This document shows positions 22,962 through 48,256 of a stretch of DNA of 64,000 nucleotides, in pieces. This stretch comes from Streptomyces sp. R28 (lineage in GTDB: Bacteria > Actinomycetota > Actinomycetes > Streptomycetales > Streptomycetaceae). The translations under genes and the position numbers were made by a program. The DNA is taken from positions 2,469,001 through 2,533,000 of the forward strand of contig NZ_CP163439.1 of the NCBI RefSeq assembly GCF_041052385.1. The letters run 5' to 3'. Under the pieces are notes generated by a model that worked only from the letters and a program-made list of their open reading frames with translations, ran no database searches and had not been told where the DNA came from. How positions within the stretch are numbered: position 1 is the first letter of the stretch; each line of letters begins with the position of its first letter.

Positions 22962-23886
22962 CTAACGGTGCCGTGCAACCACTTTTTCTGGGTTCAGGTG
23001 TTCGGGCCGGGGCCTGCCGCCGTCTTGGACGACTTCATTGCCGAGTGGTCTGCGGTGCGGGGCGATCCGTCCCAGGTCGTCCACGGCGATGAGCTGGGCG
23101 GTCCAGGCCGCGTGGGGGCAGGGCTGGGCGATGAGAAGCGCCCGACCGTGATGTTCGGCACGTGCGGGCTCGAACGCACAGCCCTCACGGGCGGGCAGCA
23201 CCCAGCGCAGATCGCCGTCGGCGATGCGGTACGCCCAGACGCGGCGCGGAGTCACCACGGCGAGCAGGCCGCGTCCCAGGTGGCGCAGGACGCCGGTGCC
23301 GCCCTGGGCCGGCAGCCACTCATCGGCCGCGGGCAGGGCACGGTGCCAGCGCACGGAACGGCCGTCGGTGTCGGTGACCATGCCGTCGTCCCAGAGCGTG
23401 ATCACGTCCACGCGCGCGCGGGGGCGCATGGGTACGGGGAGTGACATGCGCGGGCGCCGGTCTTCGCGGGTGTAGCGCCAGTGGGTCTCGCCGGTACGGG
23501 CGTCGTAGGCCTCGATGGCCGCTCCGCGTGTGCGCAGGTGCGTCGCCGCCGGCTGCGGTGGGGTCGTGGCGGCGGTGGCTTGGCGCACGCGCGCGTGGAC
23601 GGTCGCGTGGACCGTGAAGTGGTCGCCGTAGGGGGTGGGGCGGGCGTGGTGGGCGGCGGTGAGGAGCGGGGGTGCGAGGAGGAGGAGCAGGGCGGCTGCG
23701 CGGAGGGGGCGGGGGATGCGGAAGGGGCGGCGCGGGGGTGGCGGGTGGGGTGGGGGGCGAGGTGGTGGTTGGGGTGGCGGGCGGGATCGGGCCGGGAAGG
23801 TCCTCGGGTGCGGGGCGCGCGGGTGCGGAGGGCTCGGGTGCGGAGGGCTCGGCGGTGCTCGGGACGCCGGTGGATTCGAGGGTCAT
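22962..23886 (-). pseudogene. Frameshifted PQQ-propeller-like protein gene
   Basis: The C-terminal 200 codons (frame ending at 22962) encode a beta-propeller-like protein: RGAAIEAYDARTGETHWRYTRED, ALPAADEWLPAQGGTGVLRHLGRG, VWAYRIADGDLRWVLPAREGCAF. The same frame continues upstream through RPLRAAALLLLLAPPLLTAAHHARP, a clear membrane anchor, but has no start codon before a stop at 23883. A start (MTLESTGVPSTAEPSAPEPS, ATG at 23886) lies in another frame and leads into a Pro/Thr-rich segment. The frame change must fall in the G-rich tracts at about 23705-23765. Either the gene is broken or the assembly has a homopolymer error. Confidence 0.6.
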
Positions 23887-35759: not shown

Positions 35760-35979
35760 ACGGTTTGGTGGAGTTCCCCCCGGCTCGTAGTACTTCGTAC
35801 GACGTATTGGAGGTGCCGCCGCCCACCGCGGCAACCGGCTTCACGGAACGCCACCCGCCACGGGGAATTGACTGCGAGTCGGCCCTCCGGGCCCTGGCGG
35901 CGTGCTAGTCGGCGTCACTCGTGTGGGGTTCTGCACACTCTCCCCTCGCAGGTCAACGGCAAGTTGACGCCCCTTCCAA

Positions 35980-36110
35980 CCCCGTGGTGGACTTCCGGGG
36001 CCATGTACGGCGGCAGAAGAGGAAGCCGGTGCAAGTCCGGCGCGGTCCCGCCACTGTCACCGGGGTAGAAAGCCCCGGGAGCCAGGAACTCTCGCCGCCG
36101 GTCTCGTCGA
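35980..36110 (+). promoter_or_regulatory. Cobalamin (B12) riboswitch
   Basis: The core is unmistakable: GGAAGCCGGTGCAAGTCC and GCGGTCCCGCCACTGT (36020-36057), then the B12 box GAGCCAGGAACTCTCGCCGC (36080-36099). CGGCGGC at 36008-36014 can pair with GCCGCCG at 36094-36100 to close the aptamer. It lies on the plus strand, 113 bases before cobD. A small CAGGG/CCCTG hairpin (36113-36130) follows, next to a Shine-Dalgarno, suggesting control of translation. Adenosylcobalamin binding should switch the operon off. Outer boundaries are approximate. Confidence 0.92.
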
Positions 36111-36212: not shown

Positions 36213-37157
36213 ATGCGTGCCGATCGCGTCTTCGCGTACGGCGCCGCCGCCGGACTTGTCGGTGATCTGCTGCTCGGCGACCCTCGCCGGGGGCATCCGG
36301 TCGCCGCGTTCGGGCGGGCTGCCGCTGCCGTGGAACGGGTGTTGTGGCGCGACCACCGCGCGTGGGGTGCGGTGCACACCGCCGTGTGCGCCGGGGGCGC
36401 CGCCGCGGTCGGGGCGCTCGCCGCTCGTGTCGTCCGTACGTCCCCTGCCGCCTCCGTCGCGCTGACCGCCGCCGCCACCTGGGCCGTTGTCGGCGGGACC
36501 TCGCTCGCGCGCGAGGCGCGGGGCATCGGGCGGGCTCTGGAGGCGGGGGACGTCGAAGGGGCCCGGGAGCGGCTGCCGCGTCTGTGCGGCCGGGATCCGC
36601 AGGCGCTGGACGCGGACGGGATCGCCCGGGCCGTCGTGGAGTCCGTTGCCGAGAACACCTCCGACGCCGTCGTGGGGGCTCTCGTGTGGGGGGCCGTCGG
36701 TGGTGTGCCGGGGCTCGTCGGGTTTCGGGCCGTCAACACCCTTGACGCCATGGTGGGGCACAAGTCGGCCCGGTATCGGCGGTACGGGTGGGCTTCGGCC
36801 CGGCTCGACGATGTCGCCGGTTGGCCGGGAGCGCGGCTGACCGCCGTGCTCGCCGCTGTCGCCGGGGGCGATCCGCGGGGGGCCGTGCGGGCCTGGCGTG
36901 CCGACGCCGCCAGCCATCCCAGTCCCAACGCGGGCCCGGTCGAGGCGTCGTTCGCCGGCGCCCTCGGGGTGCGGCTGGGCGGGACCCTGTCGTACGGGGG
37001 GCGGGTCGAGCACCGGCCCGTGCTCAACGGCGGCGCCGGGCGCGCCGTCGTCACGCGCGACATCGAGCGTGCCGTACGGCTCTCACAACGCGTCAGTTGG
37101 CTTGCGCTCGGCGTCAGTGTCGCCGGGCGCCGCATCGTGAAGGGGCGTGCGTCATGA
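36213..37157 (+). CDS. cobD: Adenosylcobinamide-phosphate synthase (CobD/CbiB)
   Basis: A 314-residue membrane enzyme that joins aminopropanol (or its phosphate) to adenosylcobyric acid. Signatures: GLVGDLLLGDPRRGHPVAAFGR at the start, RDPQALDADGIARAVVESVAENTSDAVVGALVWGAVGG, RAVNTLDAMVGHKSARYRRYGWASARLDDV, and HPSPNAGPVEASFAGALGVRLGG. There are about four or five helices. It is the first enzyme of the riboswitch-controlled operon and overlaps cobQ by ATGA. No in-frame upstream start exists because of a TGA at 36204-36206 or nearby, so ATG 36213 is the start. Confidence 0.95.
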   Translation: MRADRVFAYGAAAGLVGDLLLGDPRRGHPVAAFGRAAAAVERVLWRDHRAWGAVHTAVCAGGAAAVGALAARVVRTSPAASVALTAAATWAVVGGTSLAREARGIGRALEAGDVEGARERLPRLCGRDPQALDADGIARAVVESVAENTSDAVVGALVWGAVGGVPGLVGFRAVNTLDAMVGHKSARYRRYGWASARLDDVAGWPGARLTAVLAAVAGGDPRGAVRAWRADAASHPSPNAGPVEASFAGALGVRLGGTLSYGGRVEHRPVLNGGAGRAVVTRDIERAVRLSQRVSWLALGVSVAGRRIVKGRAS

Positions 37158-44930: not shown

Positions 44931-46520
44931 ATGTCCCCGTCCTCGCCCTCGCCGCCGTCCTCGTCCTCGTCCTCCTCCTCGTCCGTCCCTCGGCTGGTCA
45001 TCGCCGCGCCGGCCTCCGGCAGTGGCAAGACCACCGTCGCCACGGGGTTGATGGCCGCGCTCACCGCGCGCGGGCTTGCTGTGTCTCCGCACAAGGTGGG
45101 GCCGGACTACATCGATCCCGGGTATCACACGCTCGCCACCGGACGGGTGGGGCGCAACCTCGACGCGTATCTGTGCGGGCCGGAGTTGATCGGGCCGTTG
45201 TTCCTGCATGGGGCGCGGGGGTGCGACATCGCCGTCGTCGAGGGCGTCATGGGGATGTACGACGGGGCCGCCGGGGAGGGTGAGCTGGCGTCCACCGCGC
45301 ATGTGGCGAAGTTGCTGCGGGCGCCGGTGGTGCTCGTCGTCGACGCGTCGTCGCAGTCGCGGTCCGTCGCGGCGCTGGTGCACGGGTTCGCGTCGTGGGA
45401 TCCGGAGGTGCGGGTCGGGGGCGTGATCCTGAACAAGGTCGCCTCGGATCGGCATGAGGAGCTGCTGCGGGAGGCGTTGGACGCGGCCGGGGTGCCTGTG
45501 ATGGGGGTGCTGCGGCGGGTCGCCCAGGTGGATACGCCCTCGCGGCATCTGGGGCTGGTGCCGGTCGCCGAGCGGCGGGCCGCCGCTGTGGAGGCCGTTG
45601 CGGCGATGGCGGCGCAGGTTGATGCCGGGTGTGACTTGGAGGCGTTGCTGGGGCTGGCGCGGGGGGCGGGGGCGTTGTCTTGTGCGGCTTGGGATGCGGC
45701 TGAGGTCTTGGCCTCTTCGCCCCCGCCGCCCCTACCCGTCCCGTCCTCCAGGGGCTCCGTCCCTTCGACCCCGCTGGGGGCTGCGCCCCCAGACCCCCGC
45801 TTCGGCCCTGAACGGGCCTCGTCCTCAAGCGCCGGACAGGCTGGAGAGTGCGGTCCGGCGTCGACAAGCTCCGCCCCTCGTCCTCAAGCGCCGGACGGGC
45901 TGAAGAATGCCGACCGGCCTGTGAGAGTCGCCGTCGCCGGTGGTCCCGCCTTCACCTTCTCGTACGCCGAACACGCCGAACTTCTCGCCGCCTCCGGCGC
46001 CGAAGTCGTCCCCGTCGACCCGCTCCGTGACGAGCAACTCCCCGACGGCACCCGTGGCCTGGTCATCGGGGGCGGGTTTCCCGAGGTATACGCCGCCGAG
46101 CTGTCCGCCAACGAGCCCCTCCGCAAGGCCGTCGCCGCCCTCGCAGAGGCCGGCGCTCCCGTCGCCGCCGAGTGTGCCGGGCTGCTCTACCTCTGTCGGG
46201 AGCTGGACGGGCAGCCCATGTGCGGGGTGCTCGACGCCGGTGCCCGGATGAGCGAGCGGCTCACCCTCGGGTATCGGGACGCCGTCGCCGTCAGCGACAG
46301 TGTGCTCGCCGTCGCGGGGACGCGGATGCGGGGGCACGAGTTTCATCGGACCGTCGTCGAGCCCGGCTCGGGGACGGCGCCCGCCTGGGGGGTACGCGCC
46401 CCTCGACCGCGGGTCGAAGGTTTCGTACAGCAGGGCGTGCACGCGAGTTATCTGCACACGCACTGGGCCTCGCAGCCCGGTGTCGCCCATCGGTTCGTGG
46501 AGAGGTGCCGGACGTCATGA
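44931..46520 (+). CDS. cobB: Cobyrinate a,c-diamide synthase with an inserted linker
   Basis: A 529-residue glutamine amidotransferase for carboxylates a and c; relatives are usually nearer 450-460. Residues 1-18 are a Pro/Ser string (SPSSPSPPSSSSSSSSS) from TCC/TCG repeats. The synthetase domain has LVIAAPASGSGKTTVATGLMAAL, PHKVGPDYIDPGYHTLATGR, VVEGVMGMYDGA. Residues about 260-325 are a foreign Pro/Ser/Arg-rich linker. The glutaminase domain resumes at VRVAVAGGPAFTFSYAEHAELLAASGAEVVPVDPLRDEQLP, with AAECAGLLYLCRELDG (Cys) and HEFHRTVV. GTG at 44928 is an alternative start. Domain motifs are intact, so it is probably active. Confidence 0.92.
   Translation: MSPSSPSPPSSSSSSSSSVPRLVIAAPASGSGKTTVATGLMAALTARGLAVSPHKVGPDYIDPGYHTLATGRVGRNLDAYLCGPELIGPLFLHGARGCDIAVVEGVMGMYDGAAGEGELASTAHVAKLLRAPVVLVVDASSQSRSVAALVHGFASWDPEVRVGGVILNKVASDRHEELLREALDAAGVPVMGVLRRVAQVDTPSRHLGLVPVAERRAAAVEAVAAMAAQVDAGCDLEALLGLARGAGALSCAAWDAAEVLASSPPPPLPVPSSRGSVPSTPLGAAPPDPRFGPERASSSSAGQAGECGPASTSSAPRPQAPDGLKNADRPVRVAVAGGPAFTFSYAEHAELLAASGAEVVPVDPLRDEQLPDGTRGLVIGGGFPEVYAAELSANEPLRKAVAALAEAGAPVAAECAGLLYLCRELDGQPMCGVLDAGARMSERLTLGYRDAVAVSDSVLAVAGTRMRGHEFHRTVVEPGSGTAPAWGVRAPRPRVEGFVQQGVHASYLHTHWASQPGVAHRFVERCRTS
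45741..45904 (+). repeat. Dispersed GC-rich repeat inserted in-frame in cobB
   Basis: About 165 bases made of AGGGGCTCCGTCCC, the hairpin TGGGGGCTGCGCCCCCA (about 45776-45792), and two copies of CCTCGTCCTCAAGCGCCGGAC (about 45818 and 45877, each followed by a GGCTG). I recall these modules from Streptomyces intergenic regions. The reading frame stays open across it and adds about 65 linker residues. Confidence 0.7.
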
Positions 46521-47269
46521 GCAGCAGCAGGTTGATCGGAGTCGGGGTCGGTCCCGGCGACCCGGAGCTGGTGACCGTGAAGGGCGTCAACGCTCTGCGC
46601 GCCGCCGATGTCGTCGTCGTACCGGTGATGGCTGGAGTTGACGGAAAGGACGGCGGCGAGCGGGGGCGGGCCGAGGCGACGGTGCTGCACTACGTGCCCG
46701 AGGAGAAGGTCGTGCGGGTCGTGTTCGCGCTCAACGAGCGGACCGACCGGGCCCGGCGCGAGGCGGCCTGGGATGCGGCGGGCGAGCGGGTGGCCGAGCT
46801 GCTGCGCGGCCATTCCACCGTCGCCTTCGCCACCATCGGTGACCCCAACGTCTACTCCACCTTCACCTATCTCGCCCAGACCATCTGCGAGACGGTGCCC
46901 GGCACCGTCGTCGAGACCGTCCCCGGCATCACCGCCATGCAGGACCTCGCCGCCCGTTCGGGAGCCGTGCTCACCGAGGGGACGGAGCCGCTCACGCTCG
47001 TGCCCGTCACGGCGGGGGCGACGGTGCTCAAGGAGGCACTCGCCGGGCCCGGGACCGTCGTCGCCTACAAGTTCGGGCGGCAGGCCGCGGAGGTCGCCGA
47101 GGCGCTGCGGGAGACCGGGCGGATCGAGAACGCGGTGTGGGGGTCGGCGCTGGGGCTGTCGGAGGAGTCGATCCGGCCCGCCGCCGACCTCGACGAGACT
47201 CCCCTCCCCTACCTCTCGACGCTCATCGCACCCGCCCGGCGCGACGGCGTGCGGGGCGGCAAGCTGTGA
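46517..47269 (+). CDS. cobI: Precorrin-2 C20-methyltransferase (CobI/CbiL)
   Basis: A 250-residue SAM-dependent methyltransferase making precorrin-3A. LIGVGVGPGDPELVTVKGVNALRAADVVVVP is the canonical first loop; AFATIGDPNVYSTFTYL and VPGITAMQDLAARSG are the SAM-site motifs; VVAYKFGRQAAEVAEAL is typical of the C20 enzymes. ATGA overlap with cobB. It is followed by the only long gap within the operon, which holds a minisatellite. Confidence 0.94.
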   Translation: MSSSRLIGVGVGPGDPELVTVKGVNALRAADVVVVPVMAGVDGKDGGERGRAEATVLHYVPEEKVVRVVFALNERTDRARREAAWDAAGERVAELLRGHSTVAFATIGDPNVYSTFTYLAQTICETVPGTVVETVPGITAMQDLAARSGAVLTEGTEPLTLVPVTAGATVLKEALAGPGTVVAYKFGRQAAEVAEALRETGRIENAVWGSALGLSEESIRPAADLDETPLPYLSTLIAPARRDGVRGGKL

Positions 47270-47304
47270 GCCCCTCGCCCACCCCGCGGCACCACAACGC
47301 ACGG

Positions 47305-47421
47305 CACTCGCAGGACTCGTAGCAACCGCAGCAGCCGCCGCAACGCCCGCAGCACTCGTAGCATCCGCAGCCCCGCAGCCCCGCAGCCCCGCAGCAACTC
47401 GTAGCACTCGTAAGACCCGTA
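47305..47421. repeat. Minisatellite: 13 degenerate 9-bp units
   Basis: The 168-base gap between cobI and cobM is largely tandem units of consensus CACYCGYAG (CACTCGCAG, GACTCGTAG, CAACCGCAG, ... CACTCGTAA, GACCCGTAG). Total length is 117 bases, equal to 13 units of 9, although a few units are 8 or 10 long, including three CCCCGCAG in a row. The cobM ribosome site GGAGAGGA follows directly. Confidence 0.8.
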
Positions 47422-47437
47422 GGAGAGGACCCTTCCC

Positions 47438-48256
47438 ATGGCCGAAGCCCCCACCGGCAAGGTGACCTTCGTCGGTGCCGGCCCCGGCGCCGCCGATCTG
47501 CTGACGTTCCGTGCCGCGCGTGCCATCGCCGAGGCCGACGTCGTGATCTGGGCGGCCAGCCTGGTGCAGGCGGAGGTCCTCCAGCACGCGCGCGAGGACG
47601 CCGAGATCCTCGACTCGGCCACCATGTCCCTGGAGGACGTCGTCGCCGTGTACGAGCGGGCCCGTGAGGCCGGGCTCAAGGTCGCGCGTATTCACTCCGG
47701 TGACCCCGCCCTCTGGGGCGGTACGCAGGAGCAGCTCGACCGGTGTGCCGGGATCGGCGTCGAGACCGAGATCGTGCCCGGGGTCTCGGCCTTCTCCGCC
47801 GTGGCCGCGCTCGCCCAGCGGGAGCTGACCATCCCCGAGGTCGCGCAGTCCGTCGTCCTCACCCGGCTCGGTGGCGGCAAGACGCCGATGCCGCCCGGCG
47901 AGGAGGTGCGGGAGTTCGCCAAGCACGGGACCACCATGGCGATCTTCCTGTCGGCCGCCCGTAGCGGGCAGCTCGTGCGGGAGCTGCTGGAGGGCGGGTA
48001 TCCGACGTCCACTCCGGTCGTCGTCGCCTACCAGGCGACCTGGCCGGAGGAACTCGTCGTGAAGTGCACGATCGGGACGCTGGAGGAGACCGTCAAGGAG
48101 CACAAGCTCTGGAAGCACACCCTGTTCCTGGTCGGCCCGGCCCTCGACGCGCAGGGCACACGCTCGCACCTCTACCACCCCGGTCACTTCCACGGGTACC
48201 GGAAGGCCGACCCTCAGGCACGCCGGGCGCTGCGCGAGCGAGGGGCGAGCACGTGA
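47438..48256 (+). CDS. cobM: Precorrin-4 C11-methyltransferase (CobM/CbiF)
   Basis: A 272-residue methyltransferase making precorrin-5. VTFVGAGPGAADLLTFRAARAIAEADVVIWAASLV, ARIHSGDPALWGGTQEQ, VPGVSAFSAVAALAQRELTIPEVAQSVVLTR, and GTTMAIFLSAARSGQLVREL are all family motifs. GGAGAGGACCC lies upstream of the ATG. It overlaps cobL by GTGA. Confidence 0.95.
   Translation: MAEAPTGKVTFVGAGPGAADLLTFRAARAIAEADVVIWAASLVQAEVLQHAREDAEILDSATMSLEDVVAVYERAREAGLKVARIHSGDPALWGGTQEQLDRCAGIGVETEIVPGVSAFSAVAALAQRELTIPEVAQSVVLTRLGGGKTPMPPGEEVREFAKHGTTMAIFLSAARSGQLVRELLEGGYPTSTPVVVAYQATWPEELVVKCTIGTLEETVKEHKLWKHTLFLVGPALDAQGTRSHLYHPGHFHGYRKADPQARRALRERGAST

Follow-up and report, generated by a model that had tools for sequence, protein, structure and literature searches.

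Why should one junction of a vitamin B12 (cob) gene cluster be stretched by tandem repeats that run directly into the ribosome site of the next gene? The question is raised by a stretch of 64,000 nucleotides (referred to here as the window) from a 10.76 Mb single-contig genome (G000), the nearest named relatives of which are Streptomyces. The two genes concerned are open reading frames on the plus strand (46517..47269 and 47438..48256), and both were assigned by Pfam to the tetrapyrrole methylases (PF00590, E 4.4e-43 and 3.4e-46, respectively). The more specific names cobI and cobM, taken from a first-pass annotation and from general knowledge, are presumed here to be correct.

Structure of the locus and of the array

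The cobI–cobM spacer (47270..47437, plus strand), delimited from the sequence and by comparison with relatives, is 168 bp long, whereas the five other cob junctions examined measure -1, 4, -4, -4, and -4 bp, so the junction is indeed stretched, as the first-pass annotation had stated. Translation of cobM starts with ATG at 47438, downstream of the Shine–Dalgarno-like GGAGAGGA (47422..47429, plus strand). This element and the array overlap by one base, the first of the former and the last of the latter; the array had been correctly placed just before the ribosome site. The head of the cob cluster is marked by a cobalamin riboswitch (RF00174, 49.8 bits, 35971–36110, plus strand), about 100 bp before an open reading frame (36213–37157) that we take to be CobD/CbiB-like. 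This riboswitch, far upstream of the array, was the only match in an Rfam scan of the whole window; the array is thus not a known RNA family. Scans of 46900–47600 with promoter and terminator consensus sequences gave no matches for either.

The array (47305..47422, plus strand, 118 bp) was defined by Tandem Repeats Finder (TRF), a lag test, and a hand parse, and occupies most of the gap. It had been described as a minisatellite of thirteen 9-bp units. A tandem period of 9 was confirmed, but the hand parse replaced the thirteen clean nonamers by nine units of 9 bp, four of 8 bp, and two fragments (3 and 2 bp); each 9-bp unit fits CACYCGYAG in 5 to 9 of its letters. Three of the 8-bp units are CCCCGCAG; they lie at 47371..47394 (plus strand, within an 8-bp TRF row at 47331–47395) and form the longest run of identical units. 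The 9-bp TRF row, which the 8-bp row overlaps, comprises 10.3 copies with 71% matches and 9% indels (score 68). Matches at lag 9 amounted to 78 of 159 (z 4.7), whereas 2000 dinucleotide shuffles gave an expectation of 51.4 (sd 5.6); among the other lags from 4 to 18, a z above 1 was obtained only for lag 18 (z 4.2). The best local run at lag 9 was equalled by none of the 2000 shuffles, and the best local run at lag 8 was significant as well.

When a three-unit pattern was searched in the G000 genome with up to three mismatches, three places were found, all within the array, compared with four for the reversed control; a dispersed MIRU-like family was rejected on these counts. Elsewhere in the genome, a single 31-bp match to the CCCCGCAG part of the array was detected. 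The plasmid collection and distant blastn searches gave no match.

The ZIP-family gene in relatives

The gap was compared across 197 loci, collected by a CobM search of 199 genomes of the genus (87 loci), a DNA search of 392 genomes (30 loci), and from named loci (80); the genome collections hold one genome per species. Seven loci were unresolved, and removal of 36 duplicates from the remaining 190 left 154 distinct loci. The set is skewed towards close relatives of CobM, and two partial matches (G119 and G120) among the approximately 90 strong CobM matches were left out. A fixed, non-repetitive sequence in relatives, named beforehand as the outcome that would speak against the first-pass interpretation, was not found in this comparison. 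In 113 of the 154 distinct Streptomyces loci the gap contains an opposite-strand gene for a ZIP-family transporter (Pfam PF02535, E 2e-15, for one example; the remaining loci were assigned by tblastn), and 41 loci are without it. The ZIP gene starts a median of 103 bp before cobM (range 77–318 bp); it is divergent from cobM, with a short common region between them, and convergent with cobI. No match to it was found anywhere in the G000 genome, and tblastn detected no remnant in the G000 spacer. A truncated ZIP 5′ end is left in the cobI–cobM gap of one relative (L096, genome G217), which by eye resembles a fresh deletion scar; deletion of the ZIP gene therefore does occur.

In S. coelicolor, SCO1855 is presumably cobM and SCO1854 the ZIP gene; if so, cobM in zip-bearing species would be served by a promoter of its own. 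In one report, the SCO1855 promoter is used as a weak, constant promoter (PMC7174319), and in another the B12 genes are listed as SCO1848–1850, 1852, 1853, 1855, and 1857, with 1854 skipped (PMC6585502).

For 103 zip-bearing spacers, aligned with GAGAGG as the anchor, sequence conservation was determined column by column. Two blocks are conserved, one of about 40 bp next to the start of the ZIP gene and the other, GAGAGGACC, before cobM. The zip-side block CTTSSTADCVGA is present in 100 of the 113 zip-bearing spacers and in none of the 41 zip-less ones. GAGAGGACC is strongly conserved, in keeping with the Shine–Dalgarno-like site of cobM; farther than 8 nt upstream of it, the commonest base of a column reaches a frequency of only 0.31–0.58. 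Judged by this alignment, the array is located in a poorly conserved, "soft" stretch of the leader.

History of the gap

A first tree had left out 47 of the 154 rows; a second was built from pieces of cobI and cobM for all 154, with L088/L089 chosen by the author as outgroup. On this tree the presence or absence of zip changes at least seven times, and G000 falls inside a zip-less group of 29 that is nested among zip-bearing rows. Within this group the gap ranges from 29 to 168 bp (median 58 bp); 25 of the 29 members have gaps of 29–74 bp, and that of G000 is the longest. The earliest branches (L078, L082, L083, L085, and L088–L090) are also without zip, so that a loss in the G000 clade depends on parsimony and on this outgroup. 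Most likely, zip was gained in the main Streptomyces line and then lost several times, one of the losses preceding the group of 29.

Streptomyces regalis (L006/L121) is paired with G000 by the tree with weak support (48). Both edges of the gap and the last units of the array are common to the two; the gap of S. regalis measures 90 bp compared with 168 bp, approximately 78 bp of array being missing. Two further zip-less sisters, L005 and L007 (genomes G104 and G049), have longer gaps of 102 and 124 bp, and in L007 GTCGACAGCCTGGCCCC is present twice, an independent duplication.

Probable origin of the array

The gap is probably the scar of a ZIP gene deletion in which an array subsequently grew by slippage in an unconstrained leader, and no regulatory role is needed to account for it. 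The lineage of G000 would have lost the opposite-strand metal transporter gene between cobI and cobM, the gap being what remained, and the leader left before the cobM ribosome site would have been under little sequence constraint. On the line leading to G000 this leader would then have grown by repeated tandem duplication of 9-bp (and 8-bp) units, probably through replication slippage, and the array would have been worn by point changes and indels. Both the direction (loss, then expansion) and the mechanism are inferred. The proposal is based on the occurrence of the ZIP gene in relatives and its absence here, the nested position of the zip-less clade, the difference in length from S. regalis, and the poor conservation of the stretch. 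Four observations count against it: the earliest branches of the tree are themselves zip-less, the G000 spacer contains no detectable ZIP remnant, no leader among the 145 compared is less structured than that of G000, and certain words recur before cobM in distant clades, which pure random slippage fails to explain (see below). Slippage after the loss of an overlap had been put forward in the first-pass annotation; the slippage part fits the differences in repeats among species and the far fewer units between the same edges in S. regalis, but the gap does not reflect a simple loss of overlap, a whole gene being present there in other Streptomyces.

The locus may serve as a worked case: a gap with a regulatory-looking repeat is explained by the loss of a gene and by drift of a leader under no constraint. 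Across much of Streptomyces the B12 operon is interrupted by a metal transporter gene on the opposite strand, and in one large clade it appears to have been closed again, which raises a testable question about the transcription of cobM in the split and in the closed form.

RNA folding and translation of cobM

Unlikely, on the folding predictions, is an alternative in which the leader was selected for lack of structure: C/A-rich repeats would keep a G+C-rich transcript open ahead of the ribosome site of cobM, providing a landing or standby region, and the number of units or the length would tune cobM. The RNA from 47304 to 47437 was indeed predicted to fold less stably than all of 200 shuffled sequences (z +3.7), and among 145 leaders (nine of the 154 rows were not folded) that of G000 ranked first for lack of structure (shuffle z +3.2, mean of the leaders +0.71). 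When the comparison was made with 1000 arrays in which the unit columns had been permuted, 2.9% folded as weakly or more weakly. Repetition of a unit without self-pairing suffices for openness and would thus account for much of the weak folding, leaving a weak excess over the permuted arrays. The predicted unpaired fraction of the ribosome site was 0.45–0.46 whether the whole array, its last part, or only 30 nt of leader was included, which speaks against this alternative, as do the short gaps of the 25 clade members mentioned above. An RNA structure check suggested at the outset thus yielded an unusually open leader together with a ribosome site of unaffected predicted openness, and the suggestion that copy number tunes cobM expression is unsupported by these predictions.

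A broader variant appears slightly less probable still. According to it, different short repeats grow repeatedly against the ribosome site in cobM leaders of Streptomyces. Units with weak pairing would be retained since an open leader restores the translation of cobM once the gene has lost either the promoter region of its own or the coupling to cobI.

Repeats and recurrent words in other species

The corresponding position in other species carries repeats with periods of 8, 10–12, and 14–18, including units of 12, 14, 16, and 18 bp; examples are GAACCGCAG in L037 and GGATGCACA-like units in L057, L059, and L067. Period 9 was rejected as a rule for the genus: of the 148 spacers that could be tested (six of the 154 were too short), 38 have a significant lag, with eight at lag 9, four at lag 18, and the rest spread over eleven other lags. 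Two words, ACTCGTAG (12 of the 154 spacers) and AACCGCAG (13 of 154), are found again ahead of the ribosome site of cobM in distant clades (L004–L200); they may be an ancestral remnant or of parallel origin.

The array might also derive, by retention or recombination, from an older element between zip and cobM (CAACCGCAGTACTCGTAG ahead of the ribosome site) and so not be new in the lineage. Near-identical words are found in L021, L029/L168, L030/L189, L043/L044, and L165, but, apart from S. regalis, the nearest zip-less relatives (L012 and L101, for example) are without them, and this origin is considered improbable.

The 9-bp units might also be candidate binding sites for a regulator of cobM, either protein or RNA. 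YAG triplets in phase with the units occur before the ribosome site in 15 of 145 rows at -9 and in 11 of 143 at -18 against a background of 2% (eight of the 154 rows lacked a ribosome-site anchor and were excluded, and the enrichment is partly due to related rows), and words are common to distant clades. Most relatives, however, carry no such units, the repeats of other species differ in period and sequence, and matches to the pattern in the G000 genome are confined to the array (3 versus 4 for the reversed control), all of which makes such sites very improbable. Binding by a TRAP-like protein was rejected as a misfit: the NAG triplets recognised by such proteins are 2–3 nt apart, and those of the array 6 nt.

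Finally, a peptide encoded by the repeat on the minus strand is scarcely credible: a 156-codon open frame does span the array (47209..47679, minus strand) and in part reads LRVLRALRRLLRLLRVLRV, the Leu-Arg-Val-type repeat noted at first, but the 8-bp units shift its frame, antisense open frames are common in the G+C-rich window, and the frame, having no Pfam match and no meaningful similarity to ZIP (E 4.6), was judged spurious and rejected both as a gene and as a ZIP remnant.

Comparison with known systems

Like bacterial intergenic minisatellites (VNTRs), the array consists of short head-to-tail units outside genes, in tandem above chance (z 4.7, TRF score 68), and their number differs between relatives (gaps of 168 bp in G000 and 90 bp in S. 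regalis); unlike them, it is degenerate and mixes units of two lengths (9 and 8 bp), and the variation is seen at the species level. A second known system is that of phase-variable (contingency) repeats ahead of ribosome sites, likewise directly upstream of a start codon. The array differs from these: in place of a long near-identical run, the array has 71% matches, 9% indels, and at most three CCCCGCAG in succession, no effect on the ribosome site is predicted, and the gene is biosynthetic and does not specify a surface structure. The array thus looks like ordinary repeat drift and not a switch. A third is the deletion scar that a lineage may carry in a biosynthetic operon, in which a gene of the relatives is missing and a short spacer is left: the ZIP gene occupies the same place in 113 of 154 loci and has no match in G000. 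A remnant was recognised in L096, whereas tblastn detected none in the G000 spacer, and the spacer here would then have gained tandem repeats.

The array is described nowhere in the literature searched, in which few subscription papers were covered, so that its absence is not proven. A survey of prokaryote satellites covered units of 10–200 nt, which excludes 9-bp units, and its table appears to list 38 for S. coelicolor (PMC6749651). Within the window, six of the 41 TRF rows outscore the array, which is therefore no outlier. At 23661–23852, a cluster of overlapping G-rich tandem arrays with periods of 12–24 contains two rows with higher TRF scores than that between cobI and cobM.
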